Position numbers and translations under genes: made by a program | NCBI RefSeq assembly: GCF_011603255.1 | Contig: NZ_JAANCM010000002.1 | Coordinates: 248,001 to 312,000, forward strand | Direction: 5' to 3' | Source: Ferranicluibacter rubi | GTDB lineage: Bacteria; Pseudomonadota; Alphaproteobacteria; Rhizobiales; Rhizobiaceae | Length of the DNA stretch: 64,000 nt | Shown here: positions 44,089 to 50,134 of the stretch, piece by piece | Position numbering within the stretch: the first letter of the stretch is position 1 | Layout of the letters: each line of letters opens with the position of its first letter | Notes under the pieces: model-generated | Database searches by the model: none | The model's input: only the letters and a program-made list of their open reading frames with translations | Told to the model about the DNA's origin: nothing

Positions 44089-45477
44089 ATGAGCGCCGCT
44101 TCCACGGACCCGAAACCGGCAAAGGCATCGGCAACGCCGCCCAAGGCCGGACTGAAGACAGCCTCGAAGGGCGCGCCGCCGAAGGAAACGCCGTCGGGCG
44201 ACAAGTCGGCGAAATCCGCATCCAGCCGCCCGTTCTCGACCTTCGAGCGGCTGGTCGCCTGGCGCTATCTGCGCTCGCGCCGCAAGGAAGCCTTCATCTC
44301 CGTCATCGCCGGCTTCTCCTTCATCGGCATCATGCTCGGCGTTGCCACGCTCATCATCGTCATGGCGGTGATGAACGGGTTTCGTACGGAGCTCATCTCC
44401 CGCATTCTCGGCATCAACGGTCACATGATCGTGCAGCCGCTGGATGGCCCGCTCGACAACTACGCCGATCTCGCCACGCGCTTCTCCGGTATCAAGGGCG
44501 TCACCATGGCAATCCCGATGATCGAGGGTCAGACGCTGGCTTCCGGTCCCGGCGGGGCGGGCACGGGCGCGCTGGTGCGCGGCGTGCGGGCCGACGATCT
44601 CCTGAAGATGAAGTCGGTCTCCGATCATCTGAAATCCGGCGACCTCACCGGCTATGCGGCCGGCGGCGGCGTGGCGATCGGCTCGCGCATGGCCGACCAG
44701 CTCGGCCTGCAGGCCGGCAGCACGATCACGCTCGTCGCACCCGAAGGCGATGTAACGCCGATGGGCGTCAATCCACGCGTGAAGTCCTATACCGTTTCGG
44801 CCATCTTTGAGATCGGCATGTCGGAATATGACGCGTCGATCATCTTTATGCCGCTCGAGGAAGCCCAGCTCTACTTCAACGCCGAAGGCATCGCCCAGTC
44901 CATCGAACTGTTCGTGGAGAATCCCGATCTCGTCGACAGCCTGCGCCAGCCGGTGGAAGACGCGGCCCAGAGGCAGGTGCTGATCAGCGACTGGCGCGAC
45001 CGCAACAAGACCTTCTTCTCCGCGCTTCAGGTCGAGCGCAATGTCATGTTCATGATCCTCACCCTGATCGTGCTGGTGGCGGCGCTCAATATCGTGTCCG
45101 GCCTGATCATGCTGGTGAAGGACAAGGGCAGCGACATCGCCATCCTGCGCACCATGGGGGCCTCGTCCGGCGCCGTCATGCGCATCTTCTTCATGACGGG
45201 CGCGGCCATCGGCATCGTCGGCACGCTGGCCGGCGTCGCGCTCGGCGTCGTCGTGTGTCTCAATATCGAATCGATCCGCCAGTTCTTCTCCTGGATCTCG
45301 GGCACGACGATCTTCAATCCGGAACTCTACTTCCTCAGCCAGCTACCGGCCGACATGAACCTCGGCGAAACCGTCGCGGTTGTCGGCATGGCCATCGGAC
45401 TGTCGTTCCTGGCAACCATCTTCCCCGCCTGGCGGGCCTCGCGACTGGATCCCGTCCAGGCGCTGCGTTACGAGTGA
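44089..45477 (+). CDS. lolC: Lipoprotein-releasing ABC transporter permease (LolC/LolE)
   Basis: A 462-residue inner-membrane permease with four spans, of the FtsX/MacB-type LolC/E family, which extracts lipoproteins for LolA. After a 45-residue Lys/Ala/Pro/Ser-rich cytosolic extension it shows [48 protein letters not shown], a periplasmic domain, and the C-terminal spans ending [18 protein letters not shown]. Alphaproteobacteria usually have one such subunit acting as a homodimer. It starts 9 bases after proS and is followed by lolD. Confidence 0.94.
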
Positions 45478-45487
45478 CAGGAACGAT

Positions 45488-46177
45488 ATGATGGCCCCTC
45501 GCGTGGCACTAGAGCTTTCCGGCGTCGAGCGCCATTACAGCCAGGGCGAACAGGCGCTCTCGATCCTGAAGGGTGCGGACTTCCGGCTGCTCGGTGGGCA
45601 GACGGTGGCGCTGGTCGCGCCGTCTGGCACTGGTAAATCGACGCTGCTGCATCTGGCCGGCCTTCTGGAGCGGCCCGATGCCGGCGAGGTCTCGATCAAT
45701 GGCCGGGCCTGCGGCTCGCTGAGCGATCCGGAGCGCACGGCTATCCGCCGCAACGAGATCGGCTTCGTCTACCAGTTCCATCACCTACTGCCGGAATTCA
45801 CGGCCGTCGAGAACATCATGATGCCGCAGCTGATCGCCGGCCTCTCCAAGAAGGAAGCGCGCGAACGCGCCTCCGCTTTGCTCGACTACATGCGCATCGG
45901 CCACCGTGCCGAACACCGGCCATCCGAACTGTCGGGCGGCGAGCAGCAGCGTGTGGCCATTGCCCGCGCCGTGGCGAACGCGCCCTTCGTGCTACTGGCG
46001 GACGAGCCCACCGGCAATCTCGACCCCGAGACGGCCGGCTATGTCTTCGAAGCGCTGAAGGCCCTGGTCAAGCAATCCGGCCTTGCCGCGATGATCGCCA
46101 CGCACAATTACGATCTGGCGTCCAAGATGGACCGCCGCATCACGCTCCAGGACGGCAAGGTCGTCGAACTCGCCTGA
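45488..46177 (+). CDS. lolD: Lipoprotein-releasing ABC transporter ATP-binding protein
   Basis: A 229-residue ABC ATPase with Walker [11 protein letters not shown]-loop [19 protein letters not shown] (diagnostic of LolD), signature [14 protein letters not shown] and Walker [12 protein letters not shown]. It powers the LolC permease. Start at 45488, or a second ATG at 45491; AGGA lies upstream. The open frame extends back into lolC but is not coding there. Confidence 0.96.
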
Positions 46178-46372
46178 CGCCTGGGGTCATCGCCTCTGAT
46201 CCTCGTCCTCAACGACTGGCGCGTACGGCCCCGGCGCGACTTGCTTGGGCGCGTCGCGGGAACCTTCGTCGCATCACCATGCAATCATCCAGGGCAGGTG
46301 TCGCGCAGCGGCAGTGCCCGGATGTTCCAACTCTCCCATCGAAAATTGTTAACCATCCATCAGATTCAGAGC
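46178..46372 (+). other. Intergenic region between lolD and the LexA-controlled promoter
   Basis: No gene recognised. A TTAACCAT at 46349-46356 matches the CtrA half-site sequence known in Caulobacter and rhizobia; with a single half-site this is weak evidence. Confidence 0.3.
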
Positions 46373-46407
46373 TTGAAACAGGAACGAAAATAGAACATAA
46401 AATGAAC
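46373..46407 (+). promoter_or_regulatory. Promoter with tandem LexA (SOS) boxes
   Basis: Three GAAC half-sites lie at 46382-46385, 46393-46396 and 46404-46407, each pair separated by exactly 7 bases. This makes two overlapping copies of the alphaproteobacterial LexA box GAAC-N7-GAAC. They overlap a plausible promoter: TTGAAA at 46373-46378 and a -10-like CATAAA/TAAAAT at 46396-46403. Repression by LexA and induction by DNA damage is the straightforward reading. Confidence 0.75.
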
Positions 46408-46427
46408 AGAACCAAAAGGAGCATGCC

Positions 46428-46514
46428 ATGTCCGACTTCCTTCGTGATCTCGCCGCACTGACCTCCATTGCCATGTTCATTGCCAGCTTCTCTATTCTTC
46501 TTCTCGGTCTCTGA
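46428..46514 (+). CDS. SOS-controlled single-span membrane microprotein (28 aa)
   Basis: A 28-codon ORF starting at ATG 46428, with AAAAGGAG 6 bases upstream. The product has a short polar N-terminus (MSDFLRDLAA) followed by one hydrophobic membrane span (SIAMFIASFSILLLGL) running to the C-terminus. It sits directly behind the LexA-box promoter and 110 bases before dnaE. Size, topology and regulation parallel Caulobacter SidA (29 residues, SOS-induced, blocks division), but no sequence homology is claimed. It could be translated alone or from a longer mRNA including dnaE. Confidence 0.65.
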   Translation: MSDFLRDLAALTSIAMFIASFSILLLGL

Positions 46515-46624
46515 GACGGCTCGGGTCTCTCTCGGCAAGTTCCGGGGGAGAAACGCGACGCCGTTGTCGCTTCGCCAGCGTGAAGAGCGTATGCTTTCAT
46601 CTCATGCGAGAGTCGGAGTGAGCT

Positions 46625-49600
46625 ATGGCGGATGCGGGCGCAAGCTTTGCGGGCGGGACAGGCAATGGCGACAAGCCGGCGCCGCAGTTCGTCCATCTGA
46701 GAACCCATTCGGCATTCTCGCTTCTCGAAGGCGCCCTGCCGATCAAGAAGATCATCGGCAAGGCCGTGTCCGACGCCCAACCTGCCATTGGCATCGCCGA
46801 CACGAACAATCTGTTCGCGGCGCTGGAATTCTCTCTAAAATGCATGGACGACGGCATCCAGCCGCTGATCGGCTGCCAGCTGTCGCTCGACATGGAGGAT
46901 GAGGTCGAGGGCGAGAAGCGGGGGCATGCCCAGCACCTCGCCAAGCTTCCCGCCATCGTGCTAATCGCCGCGACGGATGCGGGCTATGTCAATCTCGTCG
47001 ATCTCGTCAGTCGCGCCTATCTCGGCGGGGAGGCTAACCAGAGCGTTCGCATCTGCCTGTCCTGGCTGAAGGAAATCGGGACCGACGGCCTAATCGCTCT
47101 GACGGGGGCATCCGGTGGGCCGATCGACATCGCGATCCGCTCGGGTCAAATGGCGCTTGGCGAGGCCCGGGCGCGTTGCCTGATGGAGCTTTTCGGTGAT
47201 CGGCTCTATGTCGAACTGCAGCGCCACGGGCGCTACGACAAGCGGCACGAGAACCGGATGATCGATCTCGCCTACCGGCTGGAACTGCCGCTGGTCGCGA
47301 CCAACGAACCCTTCTTCCCGACGCCGGGCGACTATGATGCGCATGACGCCCTGATGGCGGTGGCGCACAATGCCATGGTGTCGGACGATACCCGCTTCCG
47401 CCTGACTCCGGACCATTACCTCAAGAGCCGGCAGGAAATGGCGAAGCTTTTCGCCGATCTGCCGGAGGCGCTCGACAACACGATCGAAGTCGCGCGGCGC
47501 TGCACCTTCGTGCTGAAGACGCGTGCTCCGATCCTGCCGCGTTTCACCGGCGCCTCCGACGATCCGGCGGAGGCAGAACGGGCGGAATCGCTCGAACTGC
47601 GCCGTCAGGCCATCGAAGGTCTGGACGAGCGGATGCATAAGCTCGGCCTGTCCCCCGGCTATAGCGAGACGGACTATCGCGAGCGGCTGGATTTCGAACT
47701 CGGCGTCATCGAGCGCATGAAGTTCCCAGGCTACTTCCTCATCGTTGCCGACTTCATTAAATGGGCGAAGCTGCAGGACATCCCGGTCGGTCCCGGCCGC
47801 GGTTCGGGCGCGGGCTCGCTCGTCGCCTATGCGCTGACGATCACCGACGTCGATCCCCTGCGCTTCTCGTTGCTGTTCGAACGCTTCCTCAACCCGGAAC
47901 GCGTGTCGATGCCCGACTTCGATATCGACTTCTGCCAGGACCGTCGCGAAGAGGTCATCCGCTACGTGCAGGCCAAGTACGGCCGCGAGCAGGTGGCGCA
48001 GATCATCACTTTCGGATCGCTGCAGGCACGCGCCGCGCTTCGCGACGTCGGCCGCGTGCTGGAAATGCCCTACGGTCAGGTCGACAAGATCTGCAAGATG
48101 GTGCCGAACAACCCGGCCAACCCGGTGACGCTCGCCAAGGCGATCGAGGACGAGCCACGCTTTCAGGAAGAGGTCGACAAGGAACCGGTGATCGGCCGCC
48201 TGCTCGACATCGCCCAGAAGATCGAGGGGCTTTACCGCCACGCATCGACCCATGCCGCCGGCATCGTCATCGGGGACCGACCGCTGTCGAAGCTGGTGCC
48301 GATGTATCGCGATCCACGCTCCGACATGCCGGTGACGCAGTTCAACATGAAATGGGTCGAGCAGGCCGGCCTCGTCAAGTTCGACTTTCTCGGCCTGAAG
48401 ACGCTCACCGTCCTGAAGACGGCCGTGGACTTCATCGCCAAGCGCGACATCCATGTGGCGCTGGAAGCGCTGCCGCTCGACGACGCCAAGACCTATGAGA
48501 TGCTCTCCAAGGGCGACACGGTCGGCGTATTCCAGGTGGAAAGTGCCGGCATGCGCAAGGCGCTGATCGGCATGCGGCCCGACTGCATCGAGGACATCAT
48601 CGCGCTCGTCGCGCTCTATCGCCCGGGCCCGATGGAGAACATCCCCGTCTACAATGCGCGAAAGCATGGCGAGGAGGAGATCGAATCGATCCATCCGACC
48701 ATCGACTACCTGCTGAAGGAAACGCAGGGCGTCATCGTCTACCAGGAACAGGTGATGCAGATCGCCCAGGTCCTCTCCGGCTACTCGCTCGGCGAGGCCG
48801 ATCTTCTGCGCCGCGCCATGGGCAAGAAGATCAAGGCGGAGATGGACATGCAGCGCGCGCGCTTCGTGGACGGCGCCGTCAAGAACGGCGTGTCGAAGCC
48901 GCAGGCCGACATGATCTTCGACCTGCTGGCCAAGTTCGCCAATTACGGCTTCAACAAGAGCCATGCGGCGGCCTATGCCATCGTCTCCTACCAGACGGCC
49001 TATCTGAAGGCGCATTATCCGGTCGAGTTCCTGGCAGCTTCCATGACGCTCGACATGGCGAATACCGAGAAGCTGGTCGATTTCCGCCAGGATGCCGGCC
49101 GGCTCGGCATCACCGTGGTTCCCCCCTCGGTGCAGACCTCGTTCCGCCGCTTCGAGACGGGCGACAATCGTATCTTTTATTCGCTCTCGGCGCTGAAAGG
49201 TGTCGGCGAGGCGGCCGTCGAGCATATCGTGGCGGTGCGGGGCGACACGCCCTTTGCGAGCCTCGAGGATTTCTGCCTGCGCATCGATCCGAAGCTATTG
49301 AACCGCCGCGTGTTCGAGAGCCTGATCTGCGCCGGCGCCTTCGATGGTTTCGGCTATGACCGGGCCGCGCTGGTCGCGGGTCTGGACCGGATCCTGGGGT
49401 TTGCCCAGTTCGCCAACGAGAACAGGCTCAAGGGGCAGCACGACATGTTCGGCGCGGGTGCCGCGACGGGTCCGGAAAAGATCGGCCTGCCGGATTTCAC
49501 GCCATGGCTGGCGTCGGAGAAGCTGCAGCGCGAGTTCCAGGTGCTCGGCTTCTACCTCTCGGCCCATCCGCTCGACACCTATAACGACCTGCTGGCGAAG

Positions 49601-50134
49601 ATCCGGTGCCAGACCTTCGCCGACTTCGCTCTGTCGGTGAAGAAGGGCAATACCGCCGGACGTCTCGCCGGCACCGTCACGTCCAAGCAGGAGCGCAAGA
49701 CGCGCACCGGCAACAAGATGGGCATCGTCACCTTCTCCGATTCGTCCGGCCAGTTCGAAGCCGTGCTGTTCTCGGAAATGCTGCAGCAATATCGCGATCT
49801 GCTGGAGCCCGGAAAGTCTCTGGTGCTGACCGTGCAGGCGGAGGAGCGCCCGGAAGGGATCGGCTTGCGGATCCAGACGCTGCAATCGTTGGAGGAGCGC
49901 TCGTTCCAGATGCAGAAGGCGTTGCGCGTCTATGTCCGCGACAGCGGCCCCTTGCGCTCCGTCGCCACGCATCTGAACACGAAGGGTGACGGGCAGGTGT
50001 CCTTCATCATCGTCAAGGACAATGGCCAGCGCGAGATCGAAGTGGAACTGGGCGATAAGTACCGCATCTCAGCCGAGATCGCGGCGGCCTTGAAGACGGC
50101 CCCCGGGGTGATCGATGTCGAGCTGATCTCGTAG
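46625..50134 (+). CDS. dnaE: DNA polymerase III alpha subunit
   Basis: The 1169-residue replicative polymerase, DnaE1 type. The N-terminal PHP domain starts with [18 protein letters not shown]; the polymerase active-site acidic motif is [13 protein letters not shown] near residue 432; [16 protein letters not shown] and [27 protein letters not shown] follow; a helix-hairpin-helix and OB fold lie in the C-terminal third. Length and motifs exclude the SOS-type DnaE2. CGGAG lies before the ATG. The upstream LexA boxes could also raise its transcription. Confidence 0.96.
   Translation: [1169 protein letters not shown]

Follow-up and report, generated by a model that had tools for sequence, protein, structure and literature searches.

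According to the available portions of five articles, the SidA peptide halts Caulobacter division during DNA damage (PMC4211646, PMC12700426, PMC13396833, PMC13384398, PMC9578287), and one of these reports low-confidence models that place SidA on FtsW (PMC13396833). YneA, SosA, ChiZ and DidA, by their descriptions in the portions available, are small membrane proteins that are induced by damage and inhibit a late step of division (PMC13396833, PMC4211646), as is proposed here for the peptide considered in this study. Two of them also differ from it, as DidA has 71 residues and is SOS-independent (PMC4211646), and ChiZ carries a LysM domain (PMC13396833), again as far as the available text of these sources goes. 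No report of SidA outside Caulobacter was found in the open-access literature, as judged from titles and abstract openings.

TisB is another SOS-regulated membrane peptide with a single span. The same description, in the part of the source available, applies to DinQ (PMC3567139) and is predicted to apply to our peptide, whereas TisB and DinQ are both unlike it in being, by description, toxic peptides under antisense RNA control.

Here, we report the analysis of a 28-codon open reading frame (ORF), easily missed because of its shortness, within a 64,000-nucleotide stretch of DNA, the whole of which is referred to as the window, from Ferranicluibacter rubi, a bacterium related to those of root nodules. 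The reading that we favor, at a probability of roughly 0.8, is that this ORF is a divergent sidA orthologue, encoding a LexA-repressed, damage-induced membrane peptide that would restrain division, most likely via FtsW; LexA binding, induction, membrane insertion, the division block and the FtsW contact are the parts of this reading that we infer.

Gene layout and promoter region

The order of genes on the + strand is lolC/E, lolD, a 250-nt gap, the 28-codon ORF, 110 nt, and dnaE1 (Table 1). The product of the ORF, MSDFLRDLAALTSIAMFIASFSILLLGL, is 28 aa long, and its Kyte-Doolittle 15-residue maximum of 2.5 corresponds to one predicted membrane span. By eye, GGAG/GGGAG-like stretches precede many of its homologues.

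Table 1. Features of the locus around the 28-codon ORF, in window coordinates
Feature	Position	Strand	Evidence or remark
lolC/E-type lipoprotein-releasing permease gene	44089..45477	+	window ORF; also in the syntenic Sinorhizobium meliloti record
lolD-type ABC transporter ATPase gene, upstream neighbor	45488..46177	+	ORF and S. meliloti synteny
Likely -35 element TTGAAA	46373..46378	+	9 nt before the first GAAC
LexA-type box 1, GAACGAAAATAGAAC	46382..46396	+	sequence
LexA-type box 2, GAACATAAAATGAAC	46393..46407	+	sequence; middle half-site common to both boxes
Likely -10 element CATAAA	46396..46401	+	by eye; 17-bp spacer from TTGAAA; overlaps boxes
Ribosome binding site AAAAGGAG	46414..46421	+	six nt 5' of ATG 46428
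28-codon SidA-like membrane micropeptide gene	46428..46514	+	homologues, SidA profile, dN/dS 0.063 in seven congeners
dnaE1, DNA polymerase III alpha subunit	46625..50134	+	110 nt 3' of micropeptide ORF; dnaE annotated in the syntenic S. meliloti record

Three GAAC half-sites, starting at 46382, 46393 and 46404, make up two overlapping GAAC-N7-GAAC boxes. The initial annotation had described such half-sites at 11-bp intervals, followed by an ATG and a 28-codon ORF with one membrane span; the exact positions of the half-sites were re-found, and coordinates and hydrophobicity agree for the remainder. Its promoter was retained in part: TTGAAA is kept as the likely -35 element, and the -10 element proposed there, TAAAAT (46398-46403, 19-bp spacer from TTGAAA), is replaced by CATAAA, which with its 17 bp we prefer by eye, while a strict sigma-70 promoter scan over 46300-46700 found no promoter.

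The window contains six matches to GAAC-N7-GAAC against 1.8 expected, a number reached by 0 of 100 shuffles, and the genome-wide counts are 88/87 against 41/38 for the reversed pattern; since single sites are this common in both window and genome, a lone GAAC-N7-GAAC is weak evidence. A lexA gene is present in the genome, with a GAAC-N7-GAAC 66 bp before the matched LexA domain. Even members of the genus do not all have the three half-sites intact, since the middle one is GTAC in five of seven congeneric species (L002, L004-L007), in which only the outer GAAC pair is intact. The sequence farther upstream of the peptide in these five species is also unlike that of the window.

Conservation of the peptide

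Seven species of the genus, i.e. the genome under study and six others (G001-G006), were compared in 21 non-independent pairs. Among these congeners the ORF has undergone conservative changes only, with 30/0/134 differences at codon positions 1/2/3, and over the pairs pS is 0.291 and pN 0.023, for a dN/dS of 0.063. The 28-codon ORF looks like a real gene, with selection acting on the protein; the conservation among close relatives whose absence, according to the initial annotation, would have spoken against the ORF is thus present.

Across the Rhizobiaceae, represented by one genome per genus, the N-terminus of dnaE1 was used as bait, chosen blind to boxes and peptides, and was matched in 90 of 91 genomes. 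Stretches upstream of dnaE1 were taken for 80 of the 89 matches outside our own genome, leaving out the nine lowest-ranked by dnaE match, and peptides in the slot before dnaE1 were found by an iterated profile (homologues of 25-32 residues as scored). A homologous peptide was detected in 44 of the 80 regions, in each case on the same strand as dnaE; the match at L074 is the weakest, at E=0.006. An exact box lies within 120 nt upstream in 38 of these 44 slot copies, and four more have a box with one mismatch; of the last two, L070 is without a box and L075 is cut by a contig end. At the 36 loci lacking the peptide, the 900 nt that precede the dnaE match are free of exact boxes (L049 being a short contig end). 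A whole-genome profile search of those 36 genomes returned a match in 30 (E 1.8e-11 to 0.017), bringing the genera with a profile match to 74 of the 80 examined; the search for conservation in rhizobial genomes that had been proposed for this ORF thus came out in its favor. The six genera without a match are represented by two small genomes (G012, G074), by G011 and G112, by a genome that is 76% complete (G073), and by one in 770 contigs (G119). The core common to the homologues reads R/K/Q-D-x-x-A/S-L/F-x-S-I/V-x-x-F.

Relation to Caulobacter SidA

For comparison with SidA, likely Caulobacteraceae genomes were chosen by best match to a CtrA sequence, and their dnaE loci were taken. An exact box is present at 17 of the 30 loci, and at all 17 it is followed by a peptide of 29-31 residues, e.g. 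MVRLARESLAFASVASFVWMVCSVAGLVS. Four Caulobacteraceae peptides were scored against NF033228, the NCBIfam equivalog "cell division inhibitor SidA", which has a curated cut-off of 35 bits: three were above it (60.7-70.8 bits) and one below (20.5 bits). A scan of named genomes with a Phenylobacterium DnaE as query provided 80 loci, of which 64 carry the motif, a count that leans because the motif was written from the earlier peptides, and 55 have an exact box. In Caulobacter vibrioides T5M6 (L314), the 29-residue peptide just before dnaE matches NF033228 at 72.4 bits (E=2e-20), and therefore sidA occupies the same slot as the rhizobial peptide; a peptide gene directly before dnaE is common to the window, S. 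meliloti and this C. vibrioides locus, where near-matches to the box were found and no exact one.

The 80 rhizobial loci contain 3,707 small ORFs, against which we ran a SidA profile made solely from the 17 Caulobacteraceae peptides. Its first 56 matches (best E 3.7e-6) belong to 36 loci and are all slot peptides or alternative starts of these, the first non-slot ORF follows at E=0.63, and the slot peptide is the best match of its locus in 42 of the 44 peptide-holding loci. Profile-profile alignment with hhalign gave a probability of 92.8, P 3.9e-7 and a score of 27.2, with residues 1-19 aligned, as compared with a maximum of 15.9 among 300 column-shuffled SidA decoys, none of which reached the real score. 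The part alignable with SidA is confined to these 19 residues; the tryptophan that follows FV is not common to both, nor is the C-terminal half. The window peptide alone is a weak match to the Caulobacteraceae SidA profile (12 bits, E=0.026 for 3,707 sequences). The relation to SidA is carried by family, position and operator together.

Membership of the SidA equivalog itself was considered and rejected, as the window peptide has no match to NF033228 and 0 of 43 family members reach its 35-bit cut-off. Searched over our own genome, this model had its only match elsewhere, at 15.3 bits and below the cut-off, and the window peptide itself has no match among the NCBIfam and Pfam models.

Rhizobial peptide and SidA are alike in size (28-29 residues), in having one hydrophobic span, in a gene directly 5' of dnaE, and in LexA-type boxes in most relatives, and both have an N-terminal core of the form R-D/E-x-x-A-L/F-x-S-I/V-x-x-F; they are unlike in that the rhizobial gene lies away from dnaE in many genera. 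On this comparative evidence, the rhizobial peptide is best filed as a divergent SidA-like subfamily below the NCBIfam cut-off, and in our judgement it is very probably a homologue of SidA. The initial annotation had noted the likeness to SidA in size, single predicted span and boxes, which agrees with what we find, and had held that no homology could be shown; the latter statement is superseded by the family-level homology (hhalign score above all decoys) and the common gene position.

The peptide could instead damage the membrane upon SOS induction, in the manner of TisB and DinQ, and so act as a type I toxin or persistence factor and not as a divisome inhibitor. Its size, its one span and its LexA-type boxes would fit TisB as well. 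The tisB gene, however, has a long structured 5' leader and an antisense RNA, and the distance of about 12 nt from the likely -10 element to the ribosome site would leave no room for a leader of this type. The same three features also fit DinQ, by the available part of its description (PMC3567139), but homology and gene position tie the peptide to SidA, and we regard a toxin of this kind as very unlikely.

Position of the peptide gene and its box

The gene order of the window recurs in S. meliloti Ak57, where tblastn against plasmid records, some of them chromosome-sized, found proS-lolC-lolD-[28 codons]-dnaE. The peptide in this slot is MADFVRDLAAFASMSLFIVSISVIALGL, three GAAC at 11-bp steps lie upstream of it, as in the window, and no gene is listed for the 28 codons in the (incomplete) table of that collection. 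The same search also hit a record of Shinella and three of Sinorhizobium sp., two of which were examined. In the available part of a ribosome-profiling study, S. meliloti sORF25 is described as a translated, ribosome-profiled sORF that lies in the dnaE1 5'-UTR and that two earlier annotations lack (PMC10117765). Likened by position, sORF25 resembles the window peptide in being translated and in lying in the dnaE1 5'-UTR, and it is probably the corresponding gene.

That location raises the question whether the ORF is a uORF or encodes a leader peptide, adjusting dnaE1 through its own translation. The authors of the S. meliloti study suggest, in the text available, that some sORFs in 5'-UTRs, among which sORF25 is located, could be uORFs (PMC10117765). 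The ORF of the window lies close before dnaE1, and a terminator scan over 46300-46700 found none, including between peptide and dnaE1; given this, and the short gap between peptide and dnaE in C. vibrioides L314, dnaE1 itself may be damage-induced by read-through.

The copies of the peptide found elsewhere bear directly on this reading. Of the 32 whole-genome matches, 30 were fetched from 29 genomes (L325-L334, L336-L355), leaving out the weakest match (G024), and all 30 were located from protein sequence alone. An exact GAAC-N7-GAAC lies within 130 nt upstream of 28 of them, mostly 36-52 nt before the start, and the two boxless copies are one of two in G089 and one in G014. As a control, 3,167 small ORFs outside the family were drawn from the 80 dnaE loci, with alternative starts counted; only 8 of them are preceded by an exact box within 100 nt, and 89 by a box with no more than one mismatch. 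In the stretches taken for the 30 copies, which reach some 1.5 kb downstream, no dnaE was found. The coordinates place L347 (G115) some 1.4 kb before dnaE, so that this copy in fact belongs to the slot and lies at the edge of the stretch first taken there. Thus, 29 of the 30 do not adjoin dnaE, and linkage to dnaE1 is not obligate. Twenty of the 30 come after lolC-lolD, and among the dnaE slots a lolD homologue lies upstream in 26 of the 44 with the peptide versus 5 of the 36 without it. By eye, the genes 3' of the further copies vary by group, one being lipoyl transferase-like and one gamma-glutamyltransferase-like.

The simplest reading of these arrangements, in which rearrangement separated dnaE from lolCD-peptide and the box remained with the peptide, speaks against a pure dnaE1 leader. 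As selection furthermore acts on the amino acids, we consider the uORF or leader peptide very unlikely. That the ORF is a chance or non-functional one, beside a LexA site whose true target is dnaE1, is scarcely credible. In its favor, the box precedes dnaE1 and the genome has many single GAAC-N7-GAAC sites; against it, dN/dS is low (0.06), homologues extend across genera, and the 36 peptide-less dnaE1 loci are without an exact box in the stretch examined, yet copies elsewhere are nearly all boxed.

Counted over all family copies, 70 of 78 have an exact box within 110 nt upstream and 8 of 78 do not; 46 of these 70 copies have TTG[ACT] at an offset of exactly 9 nt ahead of the box. Anchored on the box, the majority sequence is TTGAC-N4-GAACAAAAATAGAACATAATAAGAACATAA, with the third half-site the least constant. 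Judged from these counts, the association of box and ORF across genera is not one of chance, and LexA control of the peptide is supported by an operator conserved with it, also away from dnaE. The earlier proposal of LexA control therefore gains from an operator kept with the peptide (28 of 30 elsewhere versus 8 of 3,167 controls), and loses its intact GAAC triplet as a general feature, five of seven congeners having GTAC.

One of the boxless copies (L343, in G089) has 30 residues and reaches 20 bits with the SidA profile, compared with 3.7 bits for the boxed copy of the same genome (L346). L343 is a possible paralogue under other control.

Discussion

In the mechanism that we propose, LexA bound to the overlapping GAAC-N7-GAAC sites would cover the promoter and keep the gene off, and upon DNA damage RecA and LexA cleavage would derepress the gene for the 28-residue peptide. 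The peptide would then enter the inner membrane as one helix, with its N-terminal R-D pair probably cytoplasmic, and its presence there would delay cytokinesis until repair is done. The most likely contact would be FtsW or its partners, as for SidA, and the genome contains one FtsW/RodA-family match (264 bits). Division inhibition and its target are both carried over from SidA by analogy; in our judgement it is probable that the peptide restrains division, and fairly likely that FtsW is what it contacts.

For rhizobia, which grow from the pole, the SidA-like peptide detected in most of the family's genera is a ready candidate for what arrests division upon DNA damage, in a genome with a single FtsW/RodA-family match. 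The present NCBIfam SidA model recognizes the C. vibrioides peptide and nothing in this genome, and our results suggest that the SidA checkpoint is older and wider than known. They also offer a new reading of a ribosome-profiled but, in the available part of its source, unexplained sORF of S. meliloti (PMC10117765), and illustrate how gene position and operator can recover micropeptide families that are lost to sequence search alone.

Outside the family, the rhizobial profile matched 8 of 289 alphaproteobacterial genomes at E<=0.05, namely our own and seven weak ones (E 0.01-0.05), and because those matches were weak the wider survey was moved to the dnaE slot, where an exact box had to be followed by a hydrophobic ORF of 25-50 aa. 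This arrangement is present at 38 of 80 loci of the family, at 15 of 30 in Caulobacteraceae, at 12 of 26 in other families of the order, and at 2 of 27 top-ranked and 11 of 59 hand-picked loci of the class (the latter mostly from large genomes of different families), as compared with 0 of 222 in a reverse-strand control over all groups. A core similar to that of the rhizobial peptide was seen in several of the wider loci, e.g. L166, L188 and L236. The wider boxed ORFs are probable, not proven, distant relatives, and some of the non-rhizobial picks (e.g. L205, L222, L223) may be due to chance.

We tentatively put forward, as a scenario that could well be wrong, an ancestral alphaproteobacterial sidA-dnaE SOS unit, in which one LexA promoter would have driven both a division-halting membrane peptide and, by read-through, an increase of the replicative polymerase. 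Its fast-evolving descendants, of 28 to 47 residues and mostly missed by the present SidA model, would still be present in many families; the dnaE link would later have been lost, and the switch kept, in several rhizobial lineages.

Boxed hydrophobic ORFs of about 32-47 codons were observed before dnaE in other alphaproteobacterial families (L205, L222, L223, L134, L236), and some of these show a faint likeness to SidA only.
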